Positions 15,928 to 63,560 of a stretch of 64,000 bases of DNA are shown in pieces. The notes under the pieces were generated by a model that was not told where the DNA came from, did not search any database, and saw only the letters and a program-made list of their open reading frames with translations. The DNA is taken from contig OY754473.1 of assembly GCA_963575645.1 (NCBI GenBank), positions 6,758,001 through 6,822,000 of the forward strand, given 5' to 3'. This DNA comes from Xanthostigma xanthostigma (Eukaryota; Arthropoda; Insecta; Raphidioptera; Raphidiidae). Each line of letters starts with the position of its first letter. Positions within the stretch are counted from its first letter, which is position 1. The translations under genes and the position numbers were made by a program.

Positions 15928-17195
15928 AAGATCATTGAAAATGATTCAGTAAACACGATTCTATGAAAATAAATCTACGTAAATGAATCATTGAAAATGA
16001 ATCTATGAAAATTAATAATTGAAAACTAATCCATGAAAATGAATCATTGAAAATGAATCATGAAAATGAATCCATGAAAATTAATAATTGAAAACTAATC
16101 CATGAAAATGAATCATTGAAAATGAATGCTTGAAAATTAATAACTGAAAATGAATCTATGAATATGAATCATTAAAAATGAATCCCTGAAAATGAATGCA
16201 TGAAAATTAATAGCAGAAAATGTATCACTGAAAATAAATCCCTGAAAATGAATCATTAAAAATGAGTGCATGAAAATTAATAACTGAAAATGAATCAATA
16301 AAAATGAATCCTTGAAAATGAATAATTGAAAATGAATGCATGAAAATTAATAACAGAAAATGAATCAATGAAAATGAATCCCTGAAAAAAATCATTGAAA
16401 ATGAATTAATGAAAATTTATAACTAAAATTGAATCTATGAAAATTAATCATTAAAAATAAATCCCTGAAAATTAATAATTGAAAATGAATCATTGAAAAT
16501 GAAAGCATGAAAATTAATAACTGAAAATGAATCAATGAATATGAATCAATAAAAATGAATCCCTGAAAATGAATAATTAAAAATGAATGCATGAAAATTA
16601 ATAACAAAAATTAATCAATGAAAATGAATCCCTGAAAAAAATCATTGAAAATGAATGAATGAAAATTTATAACTAAAAATGAATCAATGAAAATTAATCA
16701 TTAAAAATGAATCCCTGAAAATGAATAATTGAAAATGAATGCATGACAATTAATTGCAGAAAATGAATCACTGAAAATAAATCCCTGAAAATGAATCATG
16801 AAAAATTAGTGCATGAAAATTAATAACTGAAAATGAATCAATGAATTTGAATCAATAAAAATGAATTCCTGAAAATGGATCATTGAAAATGATTGCATGA
16901 AAATTAATAACAGAAAATGAATCCCTGAAAATGATTCATTGAAAATGATAGCATGAAAATTAATAACTAAAAATCAATCAAATGAAAATGAATCATTAAA
17001 AATAAATCCCTGAAAATTAATAATTGAAAATGAATCCATGAAAATGAATGCATGAAAATTAATAACTGAAAATAAATCAATAAAAATGAATCCCTGAAAA
17101 TTAATAATTGAAAATTAGTCCATAAAAATGAATCATTGACAATGGTTAATTAACAACGATTCTTTGAAAATGAATCAACGAAAATGAACCGTGGA
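15928..17195 (+). repeat. tandem array of 14-bp units
   Basis: About 1.27 kb is built from variants of GAATCATTGAAAAT (GAATCCCTGAAAAT, GAATGCATGAAAAT, TAATAACTGAAAAT and others). The variants recur in a fixed order, which suggests a higher-order unit of four to five 14-mers. The period is not a multiple of three and stops are frequent, so it is not coding. Both edges decay gradually. Confidence 0.9.
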
Positions 17196-26705: not shown

Positions 26706-26797
26706 CCCTAAATTATTAAAATAATGATATTTCCATTTTGGTACATTTCAATAAAAACTTTCTTTTTATTATTATTTTATTTTTCTTGTAATAACAT

Positions 26798-27240
26798 ATA
26801 TCTCTGATGCGCATGCGCCGATTTTTCCCGAAATAAAATACTAAAATTTCTTGTAAAACAGATAGAATAATAAGCCGCTATGAAAAGTATACCATTGTTA
26901 TATAAAAAACGTTATAGCACATAATATCTCTTGCGCATGCGCCGATTTTCCCCAAAAATAAATTACAAAACTTTCTTGTGAAACAGATAGAATAATCAAC
27001 CGTTATGAAATGTAAAGCATTATTATATAAGAAACAACGTCATAGCTCATATCTCTTTTGTGCATGCGCCGATTTTCCCCAAAAAATTTACAAAACTTTC
27101 ATGTAAAAATAGATAAAATAATAAGTCTTTTTAAAAACTATATTATTATTATATAAAACAACATTATAAAAGATATACTCTTTTACGCATGCGCCGATGT
27201 TCCCAAAAAACAATAGGCTACTTCATATTTGCATATCAAA
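26798..27240 (+). repeat. tandem array of about 123-bp units
   Basis: Roughly 3.5 units, each opening with ATATCTC(T) and GCGCATGCGCCGATTTTCCC, followed by a poly-A-rich middle and ATTATTATATAA. Single related units occur inverted at about 52,860-53,000 and direct at 55,180-55,350. Confidence 0.7.
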
Positions 27241-28932: not shown

Positions 28933-29676
28933 TCTATACTAATACTAATCTTTATAGGTATATAAAAATCACATGTTTGTCCGCGATGAACTCCTAAACT
29001 ACTGAACCGATTTTTAATTTGATTTGCACACCGTGTGCAATTCGACCCAACTTGAAAAATAGGTTAGCTTACATTTCAATTTATAGTCGCAATATTATTT
29101 TATTGCAAATTATTTGTCTATTCCTTGACAGTCATAATACAACCATTAAGATGGCGATACCTGTTGACTGGATTGAGTGAATATTCAATAGATGGCGCAA
29201 CGAACTTAACAACCATATACGATGGCGATACCTGTTGACTGGATTGAGTGAATATTCAATAGATGGCGCAACGAACTTAACAACCATATAAGATGACGAT
29301 ACCTGTTGACTGGATTGAGTGAATATTCAATAGATGACGCAACGAACTTAACAACCATATATCTAGATCGAGGATGTAAAAAAACTGATTATCGTTTAAA
29401 ACAAATGCTTTTTTTTTTCGAGCACGACGGCGCAGCCGGAGTGAGCCCTCGAAATAGAGCAAGTGTTTTAAAGACCAGTTATCCACTATTACTTTACGCT
29501 ATTCTTTTTCGAGCACGACGGTGCAGCCGGAGTGCTCGACATACACACATATACGCCCATGTATATTTTAAAATAGCTAGCAATTAATAAAATAGATAGA
29601 TAGATAGATAGATGTTCCAATTAAATTGTTTTATTATTTCACTTTATACGTAGCGAAGCACGTACAGGGCCGCTAG
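28933..29676 (+). mobile_element. Helitron-like family F with internal minisatellite
   Basis: It begins TCTATACTAATACTAATC and ends GGGCCGCTAG before T, with a TACG...CGTA hairpin just upstream. The exact 5' base is uncertain because TCTATACT is repeated. It contains a 3 x 71-bp array and a GATA microsatellite at 29,593-29,613. Confidence 0.6.
29141..29363 (+). repeat. minisatellite, 3 units of 71 bp
   Basis: Units contain ACCTGTTGACTGGATTGAG and GAATATTCAATAGATG, nearly identical to each other. They lie inside Helitron-like element F. Confidence 0.85.
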
Positions 29677-42659: not shown

Positions 42660-43560
42660 AAAATTTTTAATTTCTTATAACCTATTTATAATGCACCTAG
42701 ATTATAATGGGGAATTATAAAACGGTCGAAAAAAAAAAAATTGGTGACTGATGATGAGATACTGTTTTAATAACTTGAGATATTAATTAGTTGGGTGACT
42801 AAATTACTAACTGAGCGAGTAAATTACTAAGTGAGCGACTAAATTACTAAGTGAGCGACTAGAATGCTTTCGGTAATTTTGAAGCAGATATCTTCTTTTG
42901 TTTTTACTTTTTATTTTTTTTTTTCACTTTGAGACTATAACTTTATAAAACTCACATTTTCATGAAGATTGAAAACCACCGCTTTTTTTGATAGAGGGGT
43001 ATGCGAATTGGCTCGCAGTGAAACGCGATGGGGCAAAAGTGGAGTTTTTAAAAAAACAATTCCGGGGTGAACGATAAAGGGGTATGCGAATTGTCTCGCA
43101 GTGAAACGGGAAGGGGCAAATGTGGAGTTCTTAAAAAAACAATTCCGGGGTGAACGATAACGGGGTATGCGAAATAAATAGTTAATTGTTTGAATAGAAC
43201 TGCGTTTTGTAAAAAATGTATATTTAATTGACAGTCAATTAAATATATATTTTTTAGAAAACGCAGTTCTATTCAAACAATTAACTATTAACCAAATGCC
43301 GCTCAGAATAAATAAATCATTTGCCAAATTTTGAAAAAAATGCAGGACGTAACGTTGACACTCAAACAAATATTAGGTCGCTCAAATATTATGAAGTTTC
43401 CCATTTTGTATTTTAAGTAACTCAAATGGATGTTTGTAAGTTGCTGTTCTGTTGATTTCTCGTCACGCGCAGTCAGTCGCTCACTTAGTAATACAGTAAC
43501 CCAAATTGATTATTTTTGTCACCCAAAATTGTAATTTAGTCGCTCGTTTAAATACTACCC
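42660..43560. repeat. repeat-rich block: 20-bp and 76-bp tandems plus palindrome
   Basis: Four units of about 20 bp (TAAATTACTAAGTGAGCGAC) are at 42,795-42,862. About 2.2 units of 76 bp (GGGGTATGCGAATTG(G/T)CTCGC) are at 42,998-43,166. A palindrome with 56-bp arms is centred on 43,233. Motifs related to the 20-bp unit return inverted at 43,455-43,545, so the block may be one decayed foldback element. Confidence 0.55.
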
Positions 43561-43749
43561 GATTATAATCCGTATGCAGGACTATCCTGTACATTCATGA
43601 AAAGACAAAAAATAGACCAATAAAATTGTTCATTTCTTTTTATCAATTACCAGCTGATTAGGGGTAGGATAAGTATTAGGGTGTTTTTATCGGTAACATT
43701 GGTAATCTAAAATCTTATAGCATTAAACCCAAAAAAAACTCTCAAAATT

Positions 43750-46515
43750 TCAGCTTCCTGCGAACGGCGCAAACAGAGTTTGTTTCCCATTAAATTAACA
43801 TTTTTTTTGAATTTTTGATAGCAGCATTTTATCGAGAATTAAATTCCTCACAAAAAAGATCCTAAATACTAAATCCGTGAATTCATTATTTTCAAAGATA
43901 TGCTGATTTAAACATTCTCATAAAAATCGGATTTCATTTAATTAATTTACGTTTAAACGAACATATCTTTTAAAATAACAAATTCACGGATTTTGTATAT
44001 ACTTACGATGACACTCGGCATCTCCGCCATCTTGAAGACAAAAGCACCATGAATTTCCCCGTCTGAATGTTATGTTCCTTACACAATTATTTACTGAAAC
44101 ATCGGTGGCCGGTTCTAAAATCAACAAATCATACAAGACTACCTTATTCTCGTCATAGCGTGTGTTCTGTTCAGAGACAATAAACGTTCACTTTTGTTTA
44201 CATTCGAACCGTCACTGCGCGCGCATCAAACCCATCTACAGAGCAAGCTATACACGCATCGTGTGAAGCGAGCACATAAAAGCCATCGCGAAAGCCAGCG
44301 CTACAGTACGTTTGAAACCTAGCAGCCAAATCTAGCGGCAAAACCAGCCACGTAAACGACGAAATTTACGGTACTTACGGTTTCCGTTGCATGGTTCGGT
44401 GGTACACTCAGAAGCGATCCCATACATCGAGCAGATACAGGTGTTGCAATCCCTCATATAAGCTGTCAGTGGCTCACATTTGAAACCTTGAATAGATTTT
44501 ATCATATATATTAATACGTTAAGGTTAAAGATGTTTGCCTCCCTTTTTAGAAAAAACCACACAATTTCTCCACATAAATTATATATCATTTTACAGATAA
44601 TTGCTTGCTCTATACTGACATCGACAACTAAAAAATTTATTATTGCTTTTGTTTTTGTAAATTAATTAAAATACAGCAACGCTGAACAGCGTCTGCCATC
44701 TGACGGCTTTAATTTTGAAACAACGTCAACACTTCGATCTGTCATCTGACCTTCATATTGTAAATACTGCATACTGCCATCTGACGGCTTTAATTTTGAA
44801 ACAACGAGCAACGCTGAACAACGTCACAGCAATGCTGCATGATGCCATCTGACGGCTTAGCTCAACGCTTTTGCTACTTGCGCCTCTATATGACAATTTT
44901 AGTAAAATATTTCTTCGATCTGTCATCTGAGCTTCATATTGTAATACAACAAAAAGAAGAACGTTATAAGCAGTGTGCAAAAATAGAAACGAATTAATAC
45001 CTGCAGTCATATTTAAAAAATAATTTTGTAAAGTAATAATGATTATACTTATTTAGTGCGAATAATTCGCACAGGTCACACTAGTAAAATAATAATAATG
45101 ATAAAGTCCGTTACTCGACTTTATGTCATAACAAACGCCATTCGCACCATTACTATTTTCCATCTATTTTACTCGCGTTTCGGGCTTTGTGGATATCATA
45201 GACTAGCGGTCCCGCCCGGTTTCACCCGGGTGTAAAAGAACGAATGGGGAAGGGAGGAACATAAGTACACACATTCATCTTAATTTACCGAGATTAATGT
45301 TGTGTCCAAATTTCATGATGATCGGAGTTACCGTTCAAAAGTTTTTGTCGATAAAAAGCAGTATTTATACTTTTTTTAACTAATATTTTTTTTTTAATTA
45401 ATTAAATAAAATTAAAATAAATTTAAATGTAAGCCTTGGATGAAAGCAATGTAGAAAATTAAAAAAAAAATAAAAATATATTCGCCCAACGTAGGGTTTG
45501 CACATTCACGACCCTGATATTGAGAGTCGTGTGCTCTACCGATTGAGCTATCCGGCCCTGTATTCTGGCAACGCTAATATGAGTATATTTAGTTAGTGCA
45601 TTTCACCTGAATAGAAGCTTATTTTTGAGATACATTTTGCAACATTTTTCATTAATGCTCCGCTCATAATGATCGTAGCCTGATTTTATATAGCCTATAG
45701 CCTTCCTCGATAAATGGGCTATCCAACAAAAACAAATTTTTTCAATTTGAACCAGTAGTTCAAACAAACAAACAAACAAACTCTTCAGATTTATATAATA
45801 CTAGCGGCCCCGCCCAGTTTCACCCGGGTGCAAAAGAATGAATGGGGAAGGAAGGGACATGAGTACACACATTCATCTTAGTTTACCGAGATGAATGTTG
45901 TGTCCAAATTTCATGATGATCGGAGTTACCGTTCAAAAGTTTTTGTCGATAAAGAGCAGTATTTAAACTTTTTTTAACTAATATTTTTTTTTTAATGGAT
46001 TAAATAAAATTAAAATACATTTAAATGTAAGCCTTAGAAAAAAGCAATGTAAAAAATAAAAAAAATAAATAAAAATATATTCACCCAACGTGGGGCTCGA
46101 ACCCACGACCCTAATATTGACAGTCGCATGCGCTACCGATTGATCTACCTGAGGTTGTGTTCTTTCATCACTAATATCTAGTTAGTGCATTTCACATGAA
46201 TAGAAGCTTATTTTTGAGATACTTTTTGCAACATTTTTCATTAAAGCTCCGCGCCTAATGGTCGTAGCGTAATATTATATAGCCTATAGCCTTCCTCGGT
46301 AAATGGGCTATCCAACAAAAAAAATTTATTCAATTTGAACCAGTAGTTCCTGAGATTAGCGCGTTCAAACAAACAAACTCTTCAGCTTTATATATTAGTA
46401 TAGATACCTATAGATATAGATTAGTATTAGTATAGATAAAACAAAACTTACTGTCCGAGCAATGTGCTGCCACTATTACGCAACAAAATAATACGATTAT
46501 ATTAAAAGTATGCAT
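43750..46515 (-). CDS. secreted pacifastin-type protein, four exons
   Basis: Predicted coding exons (minus): 46,515-46,452, 44,486-44,379, 44,093-44,007 and 43,757-43,750. Together they give 88 residues. Exon 1 encodes a hydrophobic leader (MHTFNIIVLFCCVIVAAHC). Exon 2 encodes one complete six-Cys pacifastin motif (C-x9-C-N-x-C-x-C-x8-C-x4-C). Exon 3 repeats the same spacing, but Cys2 is Asn. The first three exons end at GTAAGT donors, and every intron interrupts the codon after base 1, so the frame is kept throughout. Pacifastin proteins are small arthropod serine-protease inhibitors acting in haemolymph or secretions. The expected reactive pair after Cys5 is Thr-Glu, unlike the Leu, Arg or Lys usual at P1, so inhibition is doubtful. 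The last exon (acceptor at 43,758; Arg-Ser-stop) is the weakest part, and other downstream exons are possible. Intron 1 is 1,965 bp, nearly all Helitron. Confidence 0.7.
44502..45084 (+). mobile_element. Helitron family A, copy A7, inside intron 1
   Basis: 583 bp, TC...CTAG in A|T, hairpin intact. Its 5' end lies 15 bp from the intron 1 acceptor. On the transcribed strand its terminal region supplies CTTTAACCTTAAC, which could serve as the branch-point region. Confidence 0.85.
45203..46436 (-). mobile_element. Helitron family B, copy B3, split by B4
   Basis: The 3' CTAG is at the left edge with the CACCCGGGTG palindrome. The tRNA-Lys-like module is at 45,483-45,556. The 5' end resumes after B4 and finishes TAGTATAGA before T at 46,436, 15 bp from the exon 1 donor. 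Confidence 0.75.
45801..46404 (-). mobile_element. Helitron family B, copy B4, nested in B3
   Basis: Complete element with CTAG left and TC (as GA) right, in A|T, inserted near the 5' end of B3. The tRNA-like module at 46,083-46,155 has a well-kept B box (GTGGGTTCGAGCCCC on the minus strand). Confidence 0.8.
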
Positions 46516-46589
46516 TTTGAAATTCGCCAGTTCAATATGATCAGTTAAATAATTAACGAGAAAATACTCTGTCGGTTGTTTTAGAGCCC

Positions 46590-46598
46590 CTTTTTATA
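46590..46598 (-). promoter_or_regulatory. TATA box of the pacifastin-type gene
   Basis: TATAAAAAG on the minus strand, about 75 bp upstream of the ATG at 46,515. A start site about 30 bp downstream would give a 5' leader of about 50 nt. The position and the adjoining signal-peptide exon make it convincing. Confidence 0.6.
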
Positions 46599-48368: not shown

Positions 48369-49149
48369 AGGCCCCCATACACCTCGTTCTTTTTTGGCAG
48401 TTTTCATCGTCACGATAAAACACGTCGGTCAAAACCGAAGTGTATGGGCAAAAACGGTCGATGAAACACGGCAGTTTTTATATCTGCCGAATCTTGATTT
48501 TAAACACGACGTGTTTGCTGGTTGTCGTTTCAAATCGTAATGTGTGGCGCTTTCCGATAAGAATCGACGTGTTTATTCAGTGGTGCAACGTACAGCAAAT
48601 AAGTCATATTAATTAAATGATTGTAATTAGTTTGAGTATTGATTTATATTTTAATAATAACTCAAAATAAGTATGTTCGTCCATTCTCAGGTAATTGAAC
48701 CAATCCCCAGGTTCAAGTTTCAGCTCGCTCAATTCATACAATTGTATCGAAAATTAAACCAATCTCCTGGTTCTAGTCGTAAGTCATTTAGAAGATTTAC
48801 GTGTGAAAATTGCCTGCGTTTAAGTAACCATTCTTTAGTCCATTTTGAACGTTTTCTTTTTGAACATTTTAATTTTATAGCCACTGCGGCTGCAACTGCT
48901 AACGTTGTCGTAGGATCCATCAAAGCAGATCGTATTAATGATGCCACGACTTCAGAAAAACTGAACGAAACAACGCCTCTGTGTGGATATGGCCGTTGTT
49001 TGTGTTTAATTAACCGTACAGTTTTACCCGGGCGGTTAAAACTGCCATAAAAGAACGAGGTGTATGGGGATGGCCGTTGTTCGTGTTTAACCGTACAGTT
49101 TTACCCGGCGGTTAAAACTGCCAAAAAAGAACGAGGTGTATGGGGGCCT
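48369..49149. mobile_element. internally deleted PIF/Harbinger element
   Basis: The ends start AGGCCCCCATACACCTCG and are inverted. TAA is duplicated (48,366-48,368 and 49,150-49,152). The right terminal block occurs twice in tandem (about 48,999-49,068 and 49,069-49,149). It carries only a transposase start on the minus strand. Confidence 0.85.
48729..48947 (-). pseudogene. Harbinger transposase N-terminal remnant
   Basis: The frame includes KWTKEWLLKRRQFSHVNLLN followed by DLRLEPGDWFNF. This is the conserved Harbinger pre-catalytic segment, with an Ala/Val-rich leader before it. It stops before any DDE residue. Confidence 0.65.
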
Positions 49150-55806: not shown

Positions 55807-56045
55807 CTGTTAGAAACAACACTGTTTCTATGGTATAGTAAGTAGTCTTTAAACTTGTACTTCTGTAATACATTGTAACAAATGATATATTGTCGCTATG
55901 GTTACTATTTAATAATAATTATTTAAAACAATATACTGAACGCGTTTTCACGAATATCAATATTGTGATTGTGAGTAAAGCGAAAATAAATAATTAACCA
56001 AGTTAATTCGTCAAGAGTTCCGGCCTGTAGCTTATACAATTTAAT

Positions 56046-59000
56046 ATGCCTCGAACAAAGAAGCAATCTATTCAAAAAATGCTTAAAAAAAACCGTGTCT
56101 CCAAAATAAAGATTCGGGAAAATGATACTTACCGTACAGCAGAAAATTTAAAGACTCAGCAAAGAATTGCTCAACTACGCAGTGATAAAAGTTACCGTGC
56201 TGAAGAAAATGTTCAAACACAGTTCCGAGTTGCTCAGCTACGCACCGATAAAAGTTATCGTGCTGAAGAAAATGCCCAAAATCAGATTCGAGTTGCTGAA
56301 CTACGCACCGATGAGAGTTACCGTGCTGAAGAAAATGTTCAAACACAGTTTCGAGTTGCTCAACTGCGCACAGATGAGAGTTATCGTGCTGAAGAAAATG
56401 TTCAAACACAGTTTCGAGTTGCTCAACTGCGCACAGATGAGAGTTATCGTGCTGAAGAAAATGTTCAAACACAGTTTCGAGTTGCTCAACTGCGCACAGA
56501 TGAGAGTTATCGTGCTGAAGAAAATGTTCAAACACAATTTCGAGTTGCTCAACTGCGCACAGATGAGAGTTATCGTGCTGAAGAAAATGTTCAAACACAG
56601 TTTCGAGTTGCTCAACTGCGCACAGATGAGAGTTATCGTGCTGAAGAAAATGTTCAAACACAGTTTCGAGTTGCTCAACTGCGCACAGATGAGAGTTATC
56701 GTGCTGAAGAAAATGTTCAAACACAGTTTCGAGTTGCTCAACTGCGCACAGATGAGAGTTATTGTGCTGAAGAAAATGCCCAAAATCAGATTCGAGTTGC
56801 TCAACTACGCACCGATGAGAGTTACCGTGCTGAAGAAAATGTTCAAACACAGTTTCGAGTTGCTCAACTCCGCAAAGATGATCATTTTCGAGAAAATGAG
56901 CAGAAACGAAATAAAGACTACAAGAAAAAAAATCGTCAGGATTCATTGAAAAGAAAATGTCACAGTAATTCTGTAAACAATGCTAAAAAAATAGCTCGTC
57001 TTGATGCAGAAATCGGTTTAGGAATACGTCAGCTTGATAAAAAATCTAAACATATAATGCGTTCGAATGATATATTAAAATACAATGAATCCTTTTCCTC
57101 TGTTATTATGAGGAAAGCTGGCAGTGGTGACAAAACTGCTATTCTAATTAAAAAATTATTGAATAAAGAGCATCAACAAGCAGAAGTTTGTACTTGTTGT
57201 ATGCGAAAACTTTACGATGGTGTACACGAATTGACAAAAAAAAAACGTGATATTATTAAAGAAAAGCTTATGTGCGAACATGCCTACAAGTTCAAAAATT
57301 CAAATTTTATATGTGATACCTGCTGGAATAAACTCAGATTAGGAAAGATCCCAAAACTAGCTGCGACTAAGAATCTTTCATTCATAACAATTCCTGATTT
57401 TCTTCAAAGGTTAAGTCCTTTAGGTGCTCGATTAGTTTCTCCTTTGCTGCCTTTTTTACAAATTCGTCCTCTTGACCAATACAGTCTCAATCCACAATTA
57501 TCTCTTAAAGGGAATGTTGTAAATATTCAGGTAGATATAGAGGAAATGATGAAGTGTTTGCCTAGATTTCCTGAAGAAGCGCGGGTCGTTCAAATCATTA
57601 TGAAACGTAAAATGGAACACAAGTCGCATTACTTGGCTGAGGCGATTATTGTAGAAGACGTTAAAAAATCTTGGCAATTTTTAAAACAGTCTACGCTTTA
57701 TAGAAAACATACTATTACAACTAATGAGGAATTTTTCAGTCAGTATTCACAAAAAGATTTTAAATTTGTTGTCGATGAAATCGACAAAGAATATATTTTG
57801 CACCCTGAAAATGAATTACTTACAAGCTTTTTCAGTCAAAATAATAACGTCATAAATAAAAACGATGATATTGGTAATAAAAATGAAATTATTTTCGATA
57901 ATACTACAAATACATGTAAAAATGAAACTGTTTTGAACGAAACTGAAGAGTTCCGCGGAGAAGACAAGTTAACTGAAAATATTTTTAACAATGAAGAACA
58001 GACAGAGCATGGTGAACAGAACTTCGATAATGACGAGGTTTTAATTATTGACCAAAATCGCGAGATTGCAGACCATACTCGAATAATTGCACCCGGTGAA
58101 AATAAATGTCCAACACCAATGTATAAAATTGAAGATTATGAAATTTTATGCAATCCAAAGGCATTCGGGGGTGAACCTTTTGATCAAGATAGGATTCTGA
58201 CAACTAATGAAAAACATAAATTATGGCTCGATCATCATGATCCTCGTTGCCGTCAAGATCCTACATTTGTTTTATTGCTTGGTCAAATGACTGTACAAAA
58301 ACGTACATACGACTCACTTAGTTTTATTACTAGAAAAACTAAAAAGAATCAGTGTTTAACTGCTGCCAAGATCTTAGACAACAGCGCGGTTGACGAAATG
58401 ATTAATTTAGATGAGGGTTACAAGTTTTTGAAGCCGGTCGTTGGTTCTCCGCCTTATTGGGAGGATAAAAAAAAGTTTATTATAGCAAAAATGGCACAAA
58501 TAGGATTTCCGAGTTTATTTTTAACACTAACAGCGACCATAGAAGAGTGGCCGTATTTGATGCAGCAACTGTATGAAGAAAGGTACAATGCATCAATTAG
58601 TTTGATAAAGTGTATGGAACTTGAAAATAATATCAAAGCAGATTTGATTCGTAATAATCCCGTTACTGTAGCACGTTATATTTACCGACGTTTCACGTCT
58701 ATTGTATTATTACTTACAAAGCCCGATGGTCCTTTTCGTGAGCATTTCATTGTAGACTACGATCAGAAAGAAGAACTACAATCGAAGGGTAATTTACATC
58801 GTCACATTATACTTTGGCCAAAAAATGCTCCGCAATACGAACCTGAAAATGAGGAATCTGAAAGTCGTTGTGTTGCATTTATAGACCGATTTATCACATG
58901 CCGATTAGATGAAAGTAATCCATACGTAATGAAAAATCAACGTCATAAACATTCGTTTACATGTTTCAAAGGTAAAAAAAACATGAAAAAATGTCGTTTT

Positions 59001-62000
59001 CATTATCCTCTGTGGCCAATGCCAAAAACTAGAATATTGAAAAAACTTCAAACAGAGGAACATAATAAATTAGTAAAATTTAATTACGAAAAGATAATAA
59101 ATTTCCTCGATGATTTGGGTAAGAAACCGAGGACAATTCCTTTCTCTGAAATTCTTGAAGAGCTTGATATATCAGAAGAAGAATATATTACCGCTGCTAG
59201 ATATTCGTTGAAAAATTCTCGTGTATTTTTAAAACGTCAAAGTACTGAAATTTTTATTAATGCGTATAACCTAGATATATTAAACTTATTAAAATCTAAT
59301 ATGGATATACAATTCGTATGTGACGCTCATGCTTGCGTGTCGTACCTCACCGACTATTTAGTAAAACCAGATAAAGAAATGACAAAAACATTTCGTTATT
59401 TGATTGAGCAATTCGCACGTGGGGATTTTACTAACCTTGAAAAAGTTAAAAAGTTTGCTAATGCTTTTGTCAATACACGTGTTATTGCCGCTCAAGAAGC
59501 TGCGTGCCTTATACTTCACTTGCCGCTATTTAAATCAAGCCGGGCTGGAATAATGATTCCTACATTTCCTCCGGAAGAGCGATGCCGGACAGTAAAACGC
59601 AATGCACAACTCAAGAATTTAAACCCTGAGTCTACTGATATATACAACGTAAATATTATTGAGAAATATTGTCAACGTCATAAACGATATAATTTGATGT
59701 GTCTAGCAGATTTTGCTACAGCATACCAAAACCTAAAAAAACTGTTGCCCGATAACGAAAATATTAATAAAGATGAAAATGACGATGATGAAAATGACGA
59801 AGGTGTTAATGATAATAGTAATAATGAAAATGAAAATAATCCAAATGCAGTTACACAACGTAAACAACGAAAAGTTTTACGAACACGCCATTATAATAAA
59901 TATCAAGATGAGGCCAATTATTATCGAGAACAATTACTTCTTTACTTACCATTTAGAAATGAAATTAAGGAAATTCAAAATGTAGATTATATAAAAACTT
60001 ATAAAAATAATGAATCTGTGATTGTTCAAAACCGTGCATTAATTTATGTAATGGATGAAGAATATTTAGAAAACATTCTGAAAGAAGTAGAAGTAGATGC
60101 AAGTGACGAGGAGAATAGTGATAGGGTCGACTCAAACATAAACAGTTCGTTTATAGATGAGATAGTTGATATTTTCGAAGATCCCTATAAAGACGATTCA
60201 AATTTTCATAAAAAAATTTGTGTTCCGAAAGTAATGGACGAAGTAGATATCTTGGCATTACTCTTGAAAGCCAATGACCAACAGCTTCAAATACTTATGC
60301 ACTGTTTACATGCTCATAAGATTAGAAAACCTGTACGTTTAATCATCAGCGGTCAAGCTGGAACCGGGAAATCCTTTTTAATTGGTCTTATTTATCACGT
60401 CATATCGAACTATTTTAATAAAAAAATTGCTTGTCAAAATATTCAATCAGCAAAAGTTGTCTTAGCAGCTCCTTCGGGTAAAGCAGCTTTCTTAATTGGC
60501 GGAGCTACTATTCATAGTTGTTTCCACTTGCCTGTTGACAACAGCCGAGGTCCACTTCCGAATTTGAGCTCAAGTGTTGTTACATCATTACGAGCAGAAA
60601 TGTGTGACGTGAAGTTAGTCATTATGGATGAGGTTTCCATGATCGGTCGACATCGCTTGGAACAAATTGATACTCGTCTTCAACAAATTACTGGTGTCAA
60701 TGAGCCTTTTGGTAACCTCTCAATTATTTTTGTAGGAGATCTAAGGCAACTTCCGCCAGTTATGGACAAACCTATTTATTATAATGCACAGCATTATTTG
60801 CAAGATCAAAAAAACAAATGGAACAAAGCAAATCCAAATAGAGCATTTCAACCCCTTGTCAATGATTCATCTTATGCCAAACTATTTGCAACAGATCACT
60901 GGGCTGATTTTGACTTTTATGAATTAACAAATGTAATGCGACAAGGCAATCTAGACTTTGTTAATGCGTTGAATAATCTCTCTATAGGAACAATGACTGA
61001 TAAAGATATTCAATTAATAAAGTTACGGTGCAATTTGCCAAATGTTCCAAATGATGCTATTCATTTATTTTATAGAAATGTTGATGTTAATGTATTTAAC
61101 GCAAAAAAAATGGAAAATATGCCGGGTGATTTGTATGAGCATGAAGCTGAAGATCATATCTTAGGTAAATTTAAGAATGAAACAGCCAAATCAAATGTTT
61201 TTCGTGACCTTGATAATTTACCAATCGGCAAAACCGCTTGTTTACCAAAAAAGATCAGTGCAAAAATAAATATGAAATTTATGATCACTCGCAATATTTC
61301 CACTGCTGAAGGTTTAGTAAACGGAGCAACGGGTATATTAAGGCACATTTCTCAAATTTCTGAAAAGAAAATAATTAATGCTTTCTGGCTGGAATTTGAA
61401 TCTACTAATATTGGAAGAACTACAAGGAGTCGTTATTTGAACTATCTTAAAAAAAATAACTTAAATATAAACCTTGTTCCAATCTTTCCAGTAACAGTTG
61501 CTGATATCAAAGTCAAAGAAAGGACGGCCGTACGAAAACAATTTCCGTTAGTACTTGCAGAAGCTGTCACAGTGCACAAAAGCCAAGGTCAAACTTATAA
61601 ATCAGTCTGTGTGCATATTTTCAAGATGACACGACAACTCCAGTATGTAGCATTTAGCCGTGTTACTTCAGTTGATGGTTTGTTCATTGATGGCCATTTT
61701 GAGGCTCCAAAGAATTTGAGCGATGGAGATAATCTAATAGTGGAATTGAAGCGTTTGAAAAATGAAAAGCATCTTTTAACTTTTGAACAACCGTTGAAAG
61801 AACTGACTGGCATAAAAGTTGTTTATCACAATGCTTTGTCATTAATTAAATACATAAATTATGTAAGGAATGACAAATGGTTTCACGGTGCCGATATTCT
61901 TATTTTTTCGGAAACACGTACTCAACCTACAGACGACGTTACTATAGATGGATTTGAAATCGTTTACAGATCTGATGGAAATAATGTTGGCCATCAATTT

Positions 62001-63560
62001 CTTCGCGGAATAATAGTTTATAAAAAAAATCAACTTGATATAGTAGTTGCCGAAAAAATAACTGAAAATAGTAGGTCTCCATATAAAGTGGAGCATGTTG
62101 ACCTTGTAACATTGATAACCAAAGAATTAACCATCATTGGAGGCTATAGTTCACCGCGAACTTCTCGTCCATTCTTGAAAAAATGTATAAATACTGTACT
62201 TTCTTCCTGCGGCGGAAACGGTAATATAGTAGTCATTGGAGATTTTAATTCAGACTGCTATACAGCAAATCAATCTTGGCTGGAAATATACATGTGTGAA
62301 CGTTTTAATCTAAAACGAGCTTTGCCTGTGGGGGTCGTTACAACTGATTTAAGTACGCAAATAGATATCATTTTCACCAATCAAGTAGACTATGTATCAG
62401 GCGTTTATGAAAGTATTACATCAGATCATAAACCGATCTTTTTTTGTAACAAAGCCAATGACGTATCTGACAGAAAATTAGCAGATCATAATACGACATC
62501 TAGAGAAACGATTCCATTACCATTGTGTATTTCTAACTCTCAAATATCAAAAGACAAGCCACAGGAAGATTCTCTGAAAAACGAGTCTCAAAGAACTTCT
62601 AAAACCGAAAATTCTTTCAGCACACCGGTCAAAAAGGAAAATGTTTCCGCCGCCGTAAAAATGCCTGTTAACAATTGTTCTCCAAAAAAGGAAAAATCTC
62701 TTTTAAATGGCCGTAGTTCGATAGACAACTTTAAACTTGAAAAAAATGTCGAAGATCGCCAGTGTATTTTAACATATGTACAAAACATTTTGGCTGAAAT
62801 AAGTCAATGTAGAAGTATAACGGAAATTCAACATATCTGGCAACATAATAATCAGCTGATTCAGGATATTTGTAATGAAATTATTGTTCAATCCGCTGCT
62901 AACGTAGACGCGGTTCCGTTTCAAAAATATACTTTTAAATTAAATGAGCGAGGTCAAGCAAGCGCACAAAAACTAAATTTCATATTCAATCGTTATTTCG
63001 GGATTAATAATGTGAAAGGTGACGGCAATTGTTTGTTCCGAGCATTTGCAGATTTAATTTTCTTTGATGAAAATAAATACTTGGATATAAAAGTTTTTAT
63101 TATTAATTACGTCCTTTGTCACGTTGATCTATTTGAACAATTATTGCTTTTACAAGTTCTCCGGGTTCCTCTTCATGATGTGAATAATAGGGACAATAAT
63201 ATGATTAATCCTACATCCGTTGATTTTTTGAAAATGATTGCTCGTGAGGGAGTATGGGGTAATGAAGGTTCAGTCTACGTGATGTGTGCAGGATTGAATC
63301 TTCATGTCGTTGTTGTTACCATTAATCCTGATACACATAAAATCGAATGCATTATGAAACACATTCCAGAAGCTCCACGAACTCAAACGCCTTTAACATT
63401 AATAAATAAAAGTAATGTACATTATATGGCGACTCATAGGAAAACTTTAACCTCTCCGATATTTGAACGGCAAAACTGGCAAGGTATCACAATAGCCAAA
63501 ACTAGTATAAGTTACTTATTTTCACTTTCGCATAGTGCTAATAACGTATCGTCTGTTTAA
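56046..63560 (+). CDS. Helitron/Helentron transposase: Rep-helicase-EEP-OTU
   Basis: 2,504 residues without a stop. Residues 29-280 are twelve 21-residue repeats. Cys pairs (C382, C384/C385, C423, C426) suggest a zinc site, followed by a segment resembling the DUF6570-type region of Helitron proteins. The Rep domain shows the HUH motif (HRH, 918-920) and paired tyrosines (Y1100, Y1104) for strand nicking. A PIF1-like SF1 helicase carries Walker A GQAGTGKS (1436-1443), Walker B MDEVSM, GDLRQLPP and a terminal QYVAFSR motif. Then comes an EEP endonuclease (E1956; GDFN 2065-2068; SDH 2126-2128) and an OTU protease (D2326-G-N-C2329; H2459). Family knowledge: Helitrons move by rolling-circle replication, and EEP domains mark the Helentron branch. 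All key residues are present, so the protein could be functional. The ATG at 56,046 is the first in the frame before the repeats. Confidence 0.95.
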   Translation: MPRTKKQSIQKMLKKNRVSKIKIRENDTYRTAENLKTQQRIAQLRSDKSYRAEENVQTQFRVAQLRTDKSYRAEENAQNQIRVAELRTDESYRAEENVQTQFRVAQLRTDESYRAEENVQTQFRVAQLRTDESYRAEENVQTQFRVAQLRTDESYRAEENVQTQFRVAQLRTDESYRAEENVQTQFRVAQLRTDESYRAEENVQTQFRVAQLRTDESYRAEENVQTQFRVAQLRTDESYCAEENAQNQIRVAQLRTDESYRAEENVQTQFRVAQLRKDDHFRENEQKRNKDYKKKNRQDSLKRKCHSNSVNNAKKIARLDAEIGLGIRQLDKKSKHIMRSNDILKYNESFSSVIMRKAGSGDKTAILIKKLLNKEHQQAEVCTCCMRKLYDGVHELTKKKRDIIKEKLMCEHAYKFKNSNFICDTCWNKLRLGKIPKLAATKNLSFITIPDFLQRLSPLGARLVSPLLPFLQIRPLDQYSLNPQLSLKGNVVNIQVDIEEMMKCLPRFPEEARVVQIIMKRKMEHKSHYLAEAIIVEDVKKSWQFLKQSTLYRKHTITTNEEFFSQYSQKDFKFVVDEIDKEYILHPENELLTSFFSQNNNVINKNDDIGNKNEIIFDNTTNTCKNETVLNETEEFRGEDKLTENIFNNEEQTEHGEQNFDNDEVLIIDQNREIADHTRIIAPGENKCPTPMYKIEDYEILCNPKAFGGEPFDQDRILTTNEKHKLWLDHHDPRCRQDPTFVLLLGQMTVQKRTYDSLSFITRKTKKNQCLTAAKILDNSAVDEMINLDEGYKFLKPVVGSPPYWEDKKKFIIAKMAQIGFPSLFLTLTATIEEWPYLMQQLYEERYNASISLIKCMELENNIKADLIRNNPVTVARYIYRRFTSIVLLLTKPDGPFREHFIVDYDQKEELQSKGNLHRHIILWPKNAPQYEPENEESESRCVAFIDRFITCRLDESNPYVMKNQRHKHSFTCFKGKKNMKKCRFHYPLWPMPKTRILKKLQTEEHNKLVKFNYEKIINFLDDLGKKPRTIPFSEILEELDISEEEYITAARYSLKNSRVFLKRQSTEIFINAYNLDILNLLKSNMDIQFVCDAHACVSYLTDYLVKPDKEMTKTFRYLIEQFARGDFTNLEKVKKFANAFVNTRVIAAQEAACLILHLPLFKSSRAGIMIPTFPPEERCRTVKRNAQLKNLNPESTDIYNVNIIEKYCQRHKRYNLMCLADFATAYQNLKKLLPDNENINKDENDDDENDEGVNDNSNNENENNPNAVTQRKQRKVLRTRHYNKYQDEANYYREQLLLYLPFRNEIKEIQNVDYIKTYKNNESVIVQNRALIYVMDEEYLENILKEVEVDASDEENSDRVDSNINSSFIDEIVDIFEDPYKDDSNFHKKICVPKVMDEVDILALLLKANDQQLQILMHCLHAHKIRKPVRLIISGQAGTGKSFLIGLIYHVISNYFNKKIACQNIQSAKVVLAAPSGKAAFLIGGATIHSCFHLPVDNSRGPLPNLSSSVVTSLRAEMCDVKLVIMDEVSMIGRHRLEQIDTRLQQITGVNEPFGNLSIIFVGDLRQLPPVMDKPIYYNAQHYLQDQKNKWNKANPNRAFQPLVNDSSYAKLFATDHWADFDFYELTNVMRQGNLDFVNALNNLSIGTMTDKDIQLIKLRCNLPNVPNDAIHLFYRNVDVNVFNAKKMENMPGDLYEHEAEDHILGKFKNETAKSNVFRDLDNLPIGKTACLPKKISAKINMKFMITRNISTAEGLVNGATGILRHISQISEKKIINAFWLEFESTNIGRTTRSRYLNYLKKNNLNINLVPIFPVTVADIKVKERTAVRKQFPLVLAEAVTVHKSQGQTYKSVCVHIFKMTRQLQYVAFSRVTSVDGLFIDGHFEAPKNLSDGDNLIVELKRLKNEKHLLTFEQPLKELTGIKVVYHNALSLIKYINYVRNDKWFHGADILIFSETRTQPTDDVTIDGFEIVYRSDGNNVGHQFLRGIIVYKKNQLDIVVAEKITENSRSPYKVEHVDLVTLITKELTIIGGYSSPRTSRPFLKKCINTVLSSCGGNGNIVVIGDFNSDCYTANQSWLEIYMCERFNLKRALPVGVVTTDLSTQIDIIFTNQVDYVSGVYESITSDHKPIFFCNKANDVSDRKLADHNTTSRETIPLPLCISNSQISKDKPQEDSLKNESQRTSKTENSFSTPVKKENVSAAVKMPVNNCSPKKEKSLLNGRSSIDNFKLEKNVEDRQCILTYVQNILAEISQCRSITEIQHIWQHNNQLIQDICNEIIVQSAANVDAVPFQKYTFKLNERGQASAQKLNFIFNRYFGINNVKGDGNCLFRAFADLIFFDENKYLDIKVFIINYVLCHVDLFEQLLLLQVLRVPLHDVNNRDNNMINPTSVDFLKMIAREGVWGNEGSVYVMCAGLNLHVVVVTINPDTHKIECIMKHIPEAPRTQTPLTLINKSNVHYMATHRKTLTSPIFERQNWQGITIAKTSISYLFSLSHSANNVSSV
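56130..56885 (+). repeat. coding minisatellite, 12 units of 63 bp
   Basis: Each unit encodes a variant of YRAEENVQTQFRVAQLRTDE plus S. Units 4-10 (56,319-56,759) are nearly identical, while the edge units are diverged. The pattern suggests recent unequal exchange or slippage. The charged, regular spacing is compatible with a helical or coiled region. Because 63 is a multiple of three, other frames on both strands are also open here. Confidence 0.95.

Follow-up and report, generated by a model that had tools for sequence, protein, structure and literature searches.

A probable small spliced gene of the pacifastin family, predicted to encode a secreted inhibitor, among Helitrons and other repeats of an insect genome

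Between positions 43750 and 46598, the minus strand of the window (the whole 64,000-nucleotide stretch of DNA that was analysed) very probably carries a host insect gene, a small, spliced member of the pacifastin family with a predicted secreted inhibitor as its product. The gene looks like one that encodes one complete inhibitor domain, PLD1, and a second, incomplete domain, PLD2. From the 5′ to the 3′ end of the gene, its features are as follows.

46586..46598, minus strand: promoter sequence of the TATA type (TATAAAAAGGGGC), with the ATG 83 nt downstream; weak evidence when taken alone
46452..46515, minus strand: coding part of exon 1, 64 nt, with the ATG at 46515; predicted signal peptide (MHTFNIIVLFCCVIVAAHCSD)
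44487..46451, minus strand: intron 1, phase 1, 1965 nt (about 169 nt when three repeat copies are subtracted)
45197..46409, plus strand: two adjacent copies of an interspersed repeat of about 600 bp (ACTAGCGG...TAGTATAGAT) inside intron 1; outer ends approximate
44502..45084, plus strand: nonautonomous Helitron of 583 bp inside intron 1, with 5′ TC and 3′ hairpin plus CTAG, lying between host A and T
44379..44486, minus strand: exon 2, 108 nt; complete six-Cys pacifastin-like domain, PLD1 (CEPLTAYMRDCNTCICSMYGIASECTTEPC)
44094..44378, minus strand: intron 2, phase 1, 285 nt
44007..44093, minus strand: exon 3, 87 nt; second pacifastin-like domain, PLD2, with Cys1, 3, 4, and 5 only (CVRNITFRRGNSWCFCLQDGGDAEC)
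43758..44006, minus strand: putative intron 3, phase 1, 249 nt; GTAAGT donor, acceptor not distinctive
43863..44001, no strand assigned: palindromic, MITE-like element of 139 bp in putative intron 3
43750..43757, minus strand: coding part of putative exon 4, 8 nt, which completes an Arg codon and adds Ser and a TGA stop
43687..43706, minus strand: candidate alternative last exon (HYQCYR, then a stop) with a Cys at the Cys6 place; such a match is expected by chance

Joined at these borders, exons 1 to 3 form a single open frame on the minus strand through phase-1 introns, with no stop or frameshift before the last exon; including putative exon 4, the product has 88 amino acids. A preliminary description of this DNA had reported GTAAGT donors and uniform phase-1 introns, and we observed both at all three introns (donors at 46451, 44378, and 44006). 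It had also placed every exon under 110 bp, which agrees with coding pieces of 64, 108, 87, and a putative 8 nt. Intron 2 contains an alternative in-frame acceptor that would start exon 3 at 44114 and make it seven codons longer. As for the proposed signal-peptide exon, the ATG at 46515 opens a 64-nt hydrophobic leader, whose hydrophobicity (3.44; runner-up 1.45) is the highest among the five phase-1 open stretches of 45 to 120 nt that lead from an ATG to a GTAAGT in the window, two of which are pieces of exon 2. Judged by hydrophobicity rather than by a signal-peptide predictor, the leader has the shape expected for a secretion signal. The TATA box is present, starting at 46598, but it is weaker evidence than had been claimed; TATAAA occurs 206 times in the window, and the promoter match adds little.

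The preliminary description had called for a search of the joined exon translation against pacifastin families. In this search Pacifastin_I (PF05375) was the sole Pfam family listed, with a score of 30.7 bits (E 2.5e-7) against a gathering score of 27.9 bits. The exon 2 domain alone scored 29.4 bits, while a VWF-like family (E 0.014) remained under its cut-off. Exon 2, described earlier as a six-Cys pacifastin exon, has all six Cys intact and follows the family pattern C-x9-12-CN-x-C-x-C-x2-3-G-x3-6-CT-x3-C throughout (x9, CNTCIC, SMY-G-IASE, CT-TEP-C); no other six-Cys pacifastin motif occurs in the window. When the joined protein was compared to PDB sequences (E up to 10), the 15 best of the 19 matches listed were small pacifastin-type inhibitors, with 7sap at the top (E 1.9e-5); 2vu8, ranking after these 15, is a further pacifastin-type entry, and the remaining three are unrelated by name. 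Some of these matches are named only in terms such as "serine protease inhibitor I," and we take them to be pacifastins in line with the Foldseek result given below. The AlphaFold2 model of exon 2 was poor (58.4). In the alignment with 7sap, the reactive loop CTTEPC of exon 2 lies against CTLRAC, and by the usual numbering, PLD1 presumably has Thr at P1 and Glu at P1′. A Thr at P1 is described as unconventional, and as possibly suited to chymotrypsin-like enzymes, in a 2009 survey (PMC2689174). The survey locates the reactive site of pacifastins between the last two Cys and gives the bridges as Cys1–4, Cys2–6, and Cys3–5 (PMC2689174; also PMC5691223). It further outlines an insect gene plan in which the signal peptide is on exon 1 and whole domains are on later exons (PMC2689174), and the predicted borders reproduce this plan, with a leader exon and a whole domain on an exon. 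The Pfam score, the PDB matches, and the published exon plan support the earlier interpretation of the locus as a pacifastin-type gene.

The 3′ end of the gene can be read in three ways: exon 4 at 43757, read-through of exon 3, and an acceptor at 43706, which end the protein in ECHRS, ECHRKYIQNP, and ECHHYQCYR, respectively. These are variants of one best explanation, and the confidences that we attach to them therefore do not sum to one with that in the gene. Cys6 is present in one of the three (43706), and Cys2 is absent from all of them. Of the short last exon that had been described, the stop ending at 43750 is present, but what precedes it is two codons behind one of the 64 AG dinucleotides in 1.5 kb (43995 to 42501); the acceptor at 43757 is the first of these with at least 10 pyrimidines in 15. 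It is possible, although we do not assume it, that exon 3 is instead the last exon of the same gene and that translation passes the GTAAGT. The frame then stops seven codons past the exon 3 His, inside the palindromic element, and some 40 nt farther on, at 43942, comes an ATTAAA, whereas neither AATAAA nor ATTAAA is found for more than 500 nt past the putative exon 4 stop (next ATTAAA at 43228). Read-through would, however, disregard a GTAAGT at 44006 of the same form and phase as the other two donors, the occurrence of which by chance is unlikely because there are only 27 GTAAGT in the whole window, counting both strands.

Rather more doubtful is a last exon of the same gene that starts at 43706, which would fill the Cys6 place and possibly give PLD2 a reactive loop. 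The acceptor is in phase 1 (TATAAGATTTTAG, 8 of 15 pyrimidines), and the Cys falls at exactly C5-x4-C6. Chance is nevertheless sufficient for this match: A Cys at the exact Cys6 place follows 3 of the 64 AGs between 43995 and 42501, with 2.2 expected from the whole-window rate (200/5940), and a Cys three to five places on follows 6 of the 64, with 5.6 expected. The AG at 43706 is the nearest of those that restore Cys6, and Cys2, the partner of Cys6, is still missing in this reading. Just downstream of the gene, at 43177–43289, there is a 113-bp near-perfect fold-back (z-score –18.85 in single-stranded DNA folding).

Exon 3 resembles a duplicate of a pacifastin exon, sharing with exon 2 the four-Cys spacing, the phase, the distance from acceptor to Cys, and the GTAAGT donor. 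The second domain exon of the preliminary description is there as an 87-nt exon, but with four Cys instead of six: Asn occupies the Cys2 place, and the exon ends before Cys6. The six-Cys pattern does not match exon 3, and Cys6 is missing unless the putative last exon at 43706 provides one. Pairwise likeness to exon 2 is weak, with a BLOSUM62 score that was reached by 61 of 2000 free shuffles and by 201 of 2000 shuffles with Cys fixed; exon 3 also did not rank among the top 12 when 2050 stop-free stretches of the window were compared in this way. Searched alone in Pfam, exon 3 gave no Pacifastin_I match (only MIB_HERC2, E 0.11, under its cut-off). Among the four PDB sequence matches listed for exon 3 alone, the two best were pacifastins (E 0.023 and 0.053), with all four Cys aligned and the Asn opposite Cys2. 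Single-sequence AlphaFold2 prediction of exon 3 with the seven preceding residues yielded one confident model out of five (pLDDT 90.0, 68.9, 68.7, 50.2, and 47.1). In a Foldseek search of the PDB with the exon 3 model, the 13 best matches were pacifastin-type, some of them engineered, with 7sap the best; the probabilities were 0.75 to 0.96, and the E-values (0.8–1.7, none below 0.8) were not significant for any match. The linker between the domains, NGNLNN, is without a dibasic pair, and an RR sits inside PLD2.

Because Cys2 and Cys6 are both absent in the exon 4 and read-through readings, the two ends of one bridge appear to have been lost together. Such a matched-pair loss fits a re-shaped domain, with decay as the other possibility. 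We tentatively put forward, as a rather unlikely but specific proposal, that PLD2 might be a working, noninhibitory module of pacifastin fold that shed the Cys2–Cys6 bridge and the reactive loop jointly and was retained, with its two disulfides, as a scaffold that has taken on a new role in binding or signalling, next to a PLD1 with an unconventional Thr–Glu reactive bond.

We consider it unlikely that the locus is a decaying pacifastin pseudogene or relic, in which the second domain lost Cys and in which the Helitron at exon 2, together with the palindrome behind exon 3, interfered with splicing. Exon 3 does lack Cys2, and the exon 4 reading lacks Cys6; with the end of the Helitron 15 nt away, the exon 2 acceptor is left with an AT-rich tract and may have been damaged; the 500 nt past the exon 4 stop contain no polyadenylation signal; and the window holds no further six-Cys pacifastin motif. 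Yet all three donors read GTAAGT, the frame is open throughout, and the six Cys of exon 2 are intact. In addition, both Cys lost from exon 3 in the exon 4 reading are partners of one bridge, which fits re-shaping better than random decay.

Under the preferred reading of a resident host gene, intron 1 would have grown from about 169 to 1965 nt by the entry of the Helitron and two copies of the 600-bp repeat. Helitrons are recognized by a 5′ TC, a 3′ hairpin plus CTRR, and insertion between A and T, and the element in intron 1 has all of these (A/TC...hairpin...CTAG/T). Its family has seven copies in the window (common 3′ end in seven of seven and common 5′ end in five of seven, with up to three mismatches), and this, together with an open frame with a PIF1 helicase at 56031–63560, bears out the earlier statement that the gene lies among Helitrons. 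Only 15 nt separate the Helitron from exon 2, so the tract ahead of the exon 2 acceptor is part Helitron. Further copies of the approximately 600-bp repeat, some of them partial, are at 3.3–3.9, 30.5–30.9, 47.7–48.4, and 51.7–52.3 kb. The repeats have a lepidopteran look, from which a moth or butterfly would be a guess at the host. The 139-bp palindrome has no second copy of at least 40 nt in the window, so that its mobility is no more than presumed. All repeats in the gene (at least 40 nt with copies in the window, or palindromic) are intronic, leaving the coding exons free.

It is very improbable that the pacifastin gene is borne by a Helitron that captured it. Helitrons are abundant in the window and have been described as able to capture genes, but here the exons all lie outside the Helitron, which sits within intron 1, and no window repeat of at least 40 nt overlaps any coding exon. 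A strict hairpin-CTRR scan returned four ends, all of the 583-bp family and none enclosing the gene; the scan misses some ends, given that the family has seven copies. With no Helitron ends or repeats found to enclose the exons, we rejected capture.

The frame at 56031–63560 on the plus strand is a single one of 2509 amino acids with DUF6570, PIF1 helicase, and OTU protease and, below cut-off, a partial Helitron_like_N and an endonuclease-like stretch. It is probably an intact autonomous Helitron, perhaps of another family, as its flanks did not show the end motifs of the 583-bp family. Near its start (56167–56881), a 63-bp (21-aa) unit occurs about 11 times in tandem. Elsewhere in the window, tandem arrays lie at 15931–17188 (1.26 kb, about 90 copies of a degenerate 14-bp unit), 26794–27209 (125-bp unit, 3.3 copies, 80% match), and 29139–29361 (71-bp unit, 3.2 copies, 96% match). 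Outside the big Helitron, the longest open frames are two that overlap on opposite strands at 48661–49100 (129 and 123 aa), neither of which has a Pfam match. Besides the exons, 12 of 226 stop-free stretches of at least 55 aa outside the big Helitron were scanned against Pfam, with no match, and with this coverage other spliced genes in the window are possible. A tRNA scan of the window with bacterial settings and an Rfam search at gathering scores each returned nothing. Among viral contig records, neither relatives of the gene nor matches to two repeat patterns were found. One 16-residue match, in a Clostridia MAG among prokaryote contigs, was judged to be due to chance.

As to chance in the gene model itself, the six-Cys motif occurs once in the six frames of the window and in none of 100 simulated 64-kb Markov-1 sequences. 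When only Cys1, 3, 4, and 5 are required, with variable gaps, this looser pattern occurs twice, in exons 2 and 3, where 0.39 is expected (39 in 100 simulations). The exact spacing C-x12-C-x-C-x8-C is likewise confined to exons 2 and 3 (two in the window), compared to three in a simulated order-2 strand of 20 Mb; if an AG is also required 8 nt ahead of the first Cys, and likewise if a GTAAGT must follow, the count is two in the window and zero in the simulated 20 Mb. These patterns were framed post hoc, once the exons had been seen, and so the counts describe an agreement and are not blind tests. That the model is a chance alignment of unrelated sequence can be set aside almost entirely: Short exons can be combined in many ways in 64 kb that hold 206 TATAAA, but the Pfam score exceeds a curated cut-off and the motif controls disfavour it.

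By its sequence, the gene adds a further member, one whose second domain is incomplete, to a well-known family of insect inhibitors. The 2009 survey reports insect pacifastins from nearly all orders, butterflies and moths included, with usually one to five domains per precursor and dibasic sites in nearly 90% of multidomain precursors (PMC2689174); pacifastin is also noted among corn-borer bursa copulatrix transcripts. Insect pacifastin precursors (PF05375, LCMII/SGPI type) share with the present gene a signal peptide (predicted here) on its own exon, a whole-domain exon, the CNxCxC core, and the CT...C loop frame. They differ from it in that here the second domain is without Cys2 and, in two of three readings, without Cys6, the linker has no dibasic site, and P1 and P1′ are Thr and Glu. 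The CTI-homolog pacifastin 7sap ranks first both in the PDB sequence search with the joined protein and in the Foldseek search with the exon 3 model, and its reactive loop is CTLRAC where exon 2 has CTTEPC. BmSPI71, BmSPI72, and BmSPI73 of the silkworm and PxSPI58 of the diamondback moth are moth pacifastin genes with 2, 4, 13/11, and 4 domains, respectively (PMC3278429, PMC5309989); P1 in PxSPI58 is given as Arg or Leu (PMC5309989), as opposed to Thr in the exon 2 domain.

The precursor of about 88 amino acids, from three or four small exons, would consist of a hydrophobic leader, PLD1, and PLD2. PLD1 would be secreted with bridges Cys1–4, 2–6, and 3–5 and would bind a serine peptidase in a substrate-like manner through the Cys5–Cys6 loop; the Thr-P1/Glu-P1′ pair is unusual and makes the target, perhaps a chymotrypsin-like enzyme, hard to predict. 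PLD2 would retain the partners of bridges 1–4 and 3–5 and not those of 2–6, so its reactive loop could not be closed in the usual way. It is probably no longer inhibitory and may serve as a stabilising or binding appendage. Since the linker has no dibasic site, PLD1 and PLD2 are probably secreted as one chain.

The gene is of an ordinary insect type that length-based searches can miss. We conclude that a gene likely to encode a secreted peptide, its coding exons 64 to 108 nt long, is hidden here in repeat-rich DNA, beyond the reach of ORF-length filters, and that the domain on its exon 3 may have lost one disulfide pair together with the reactive loop.
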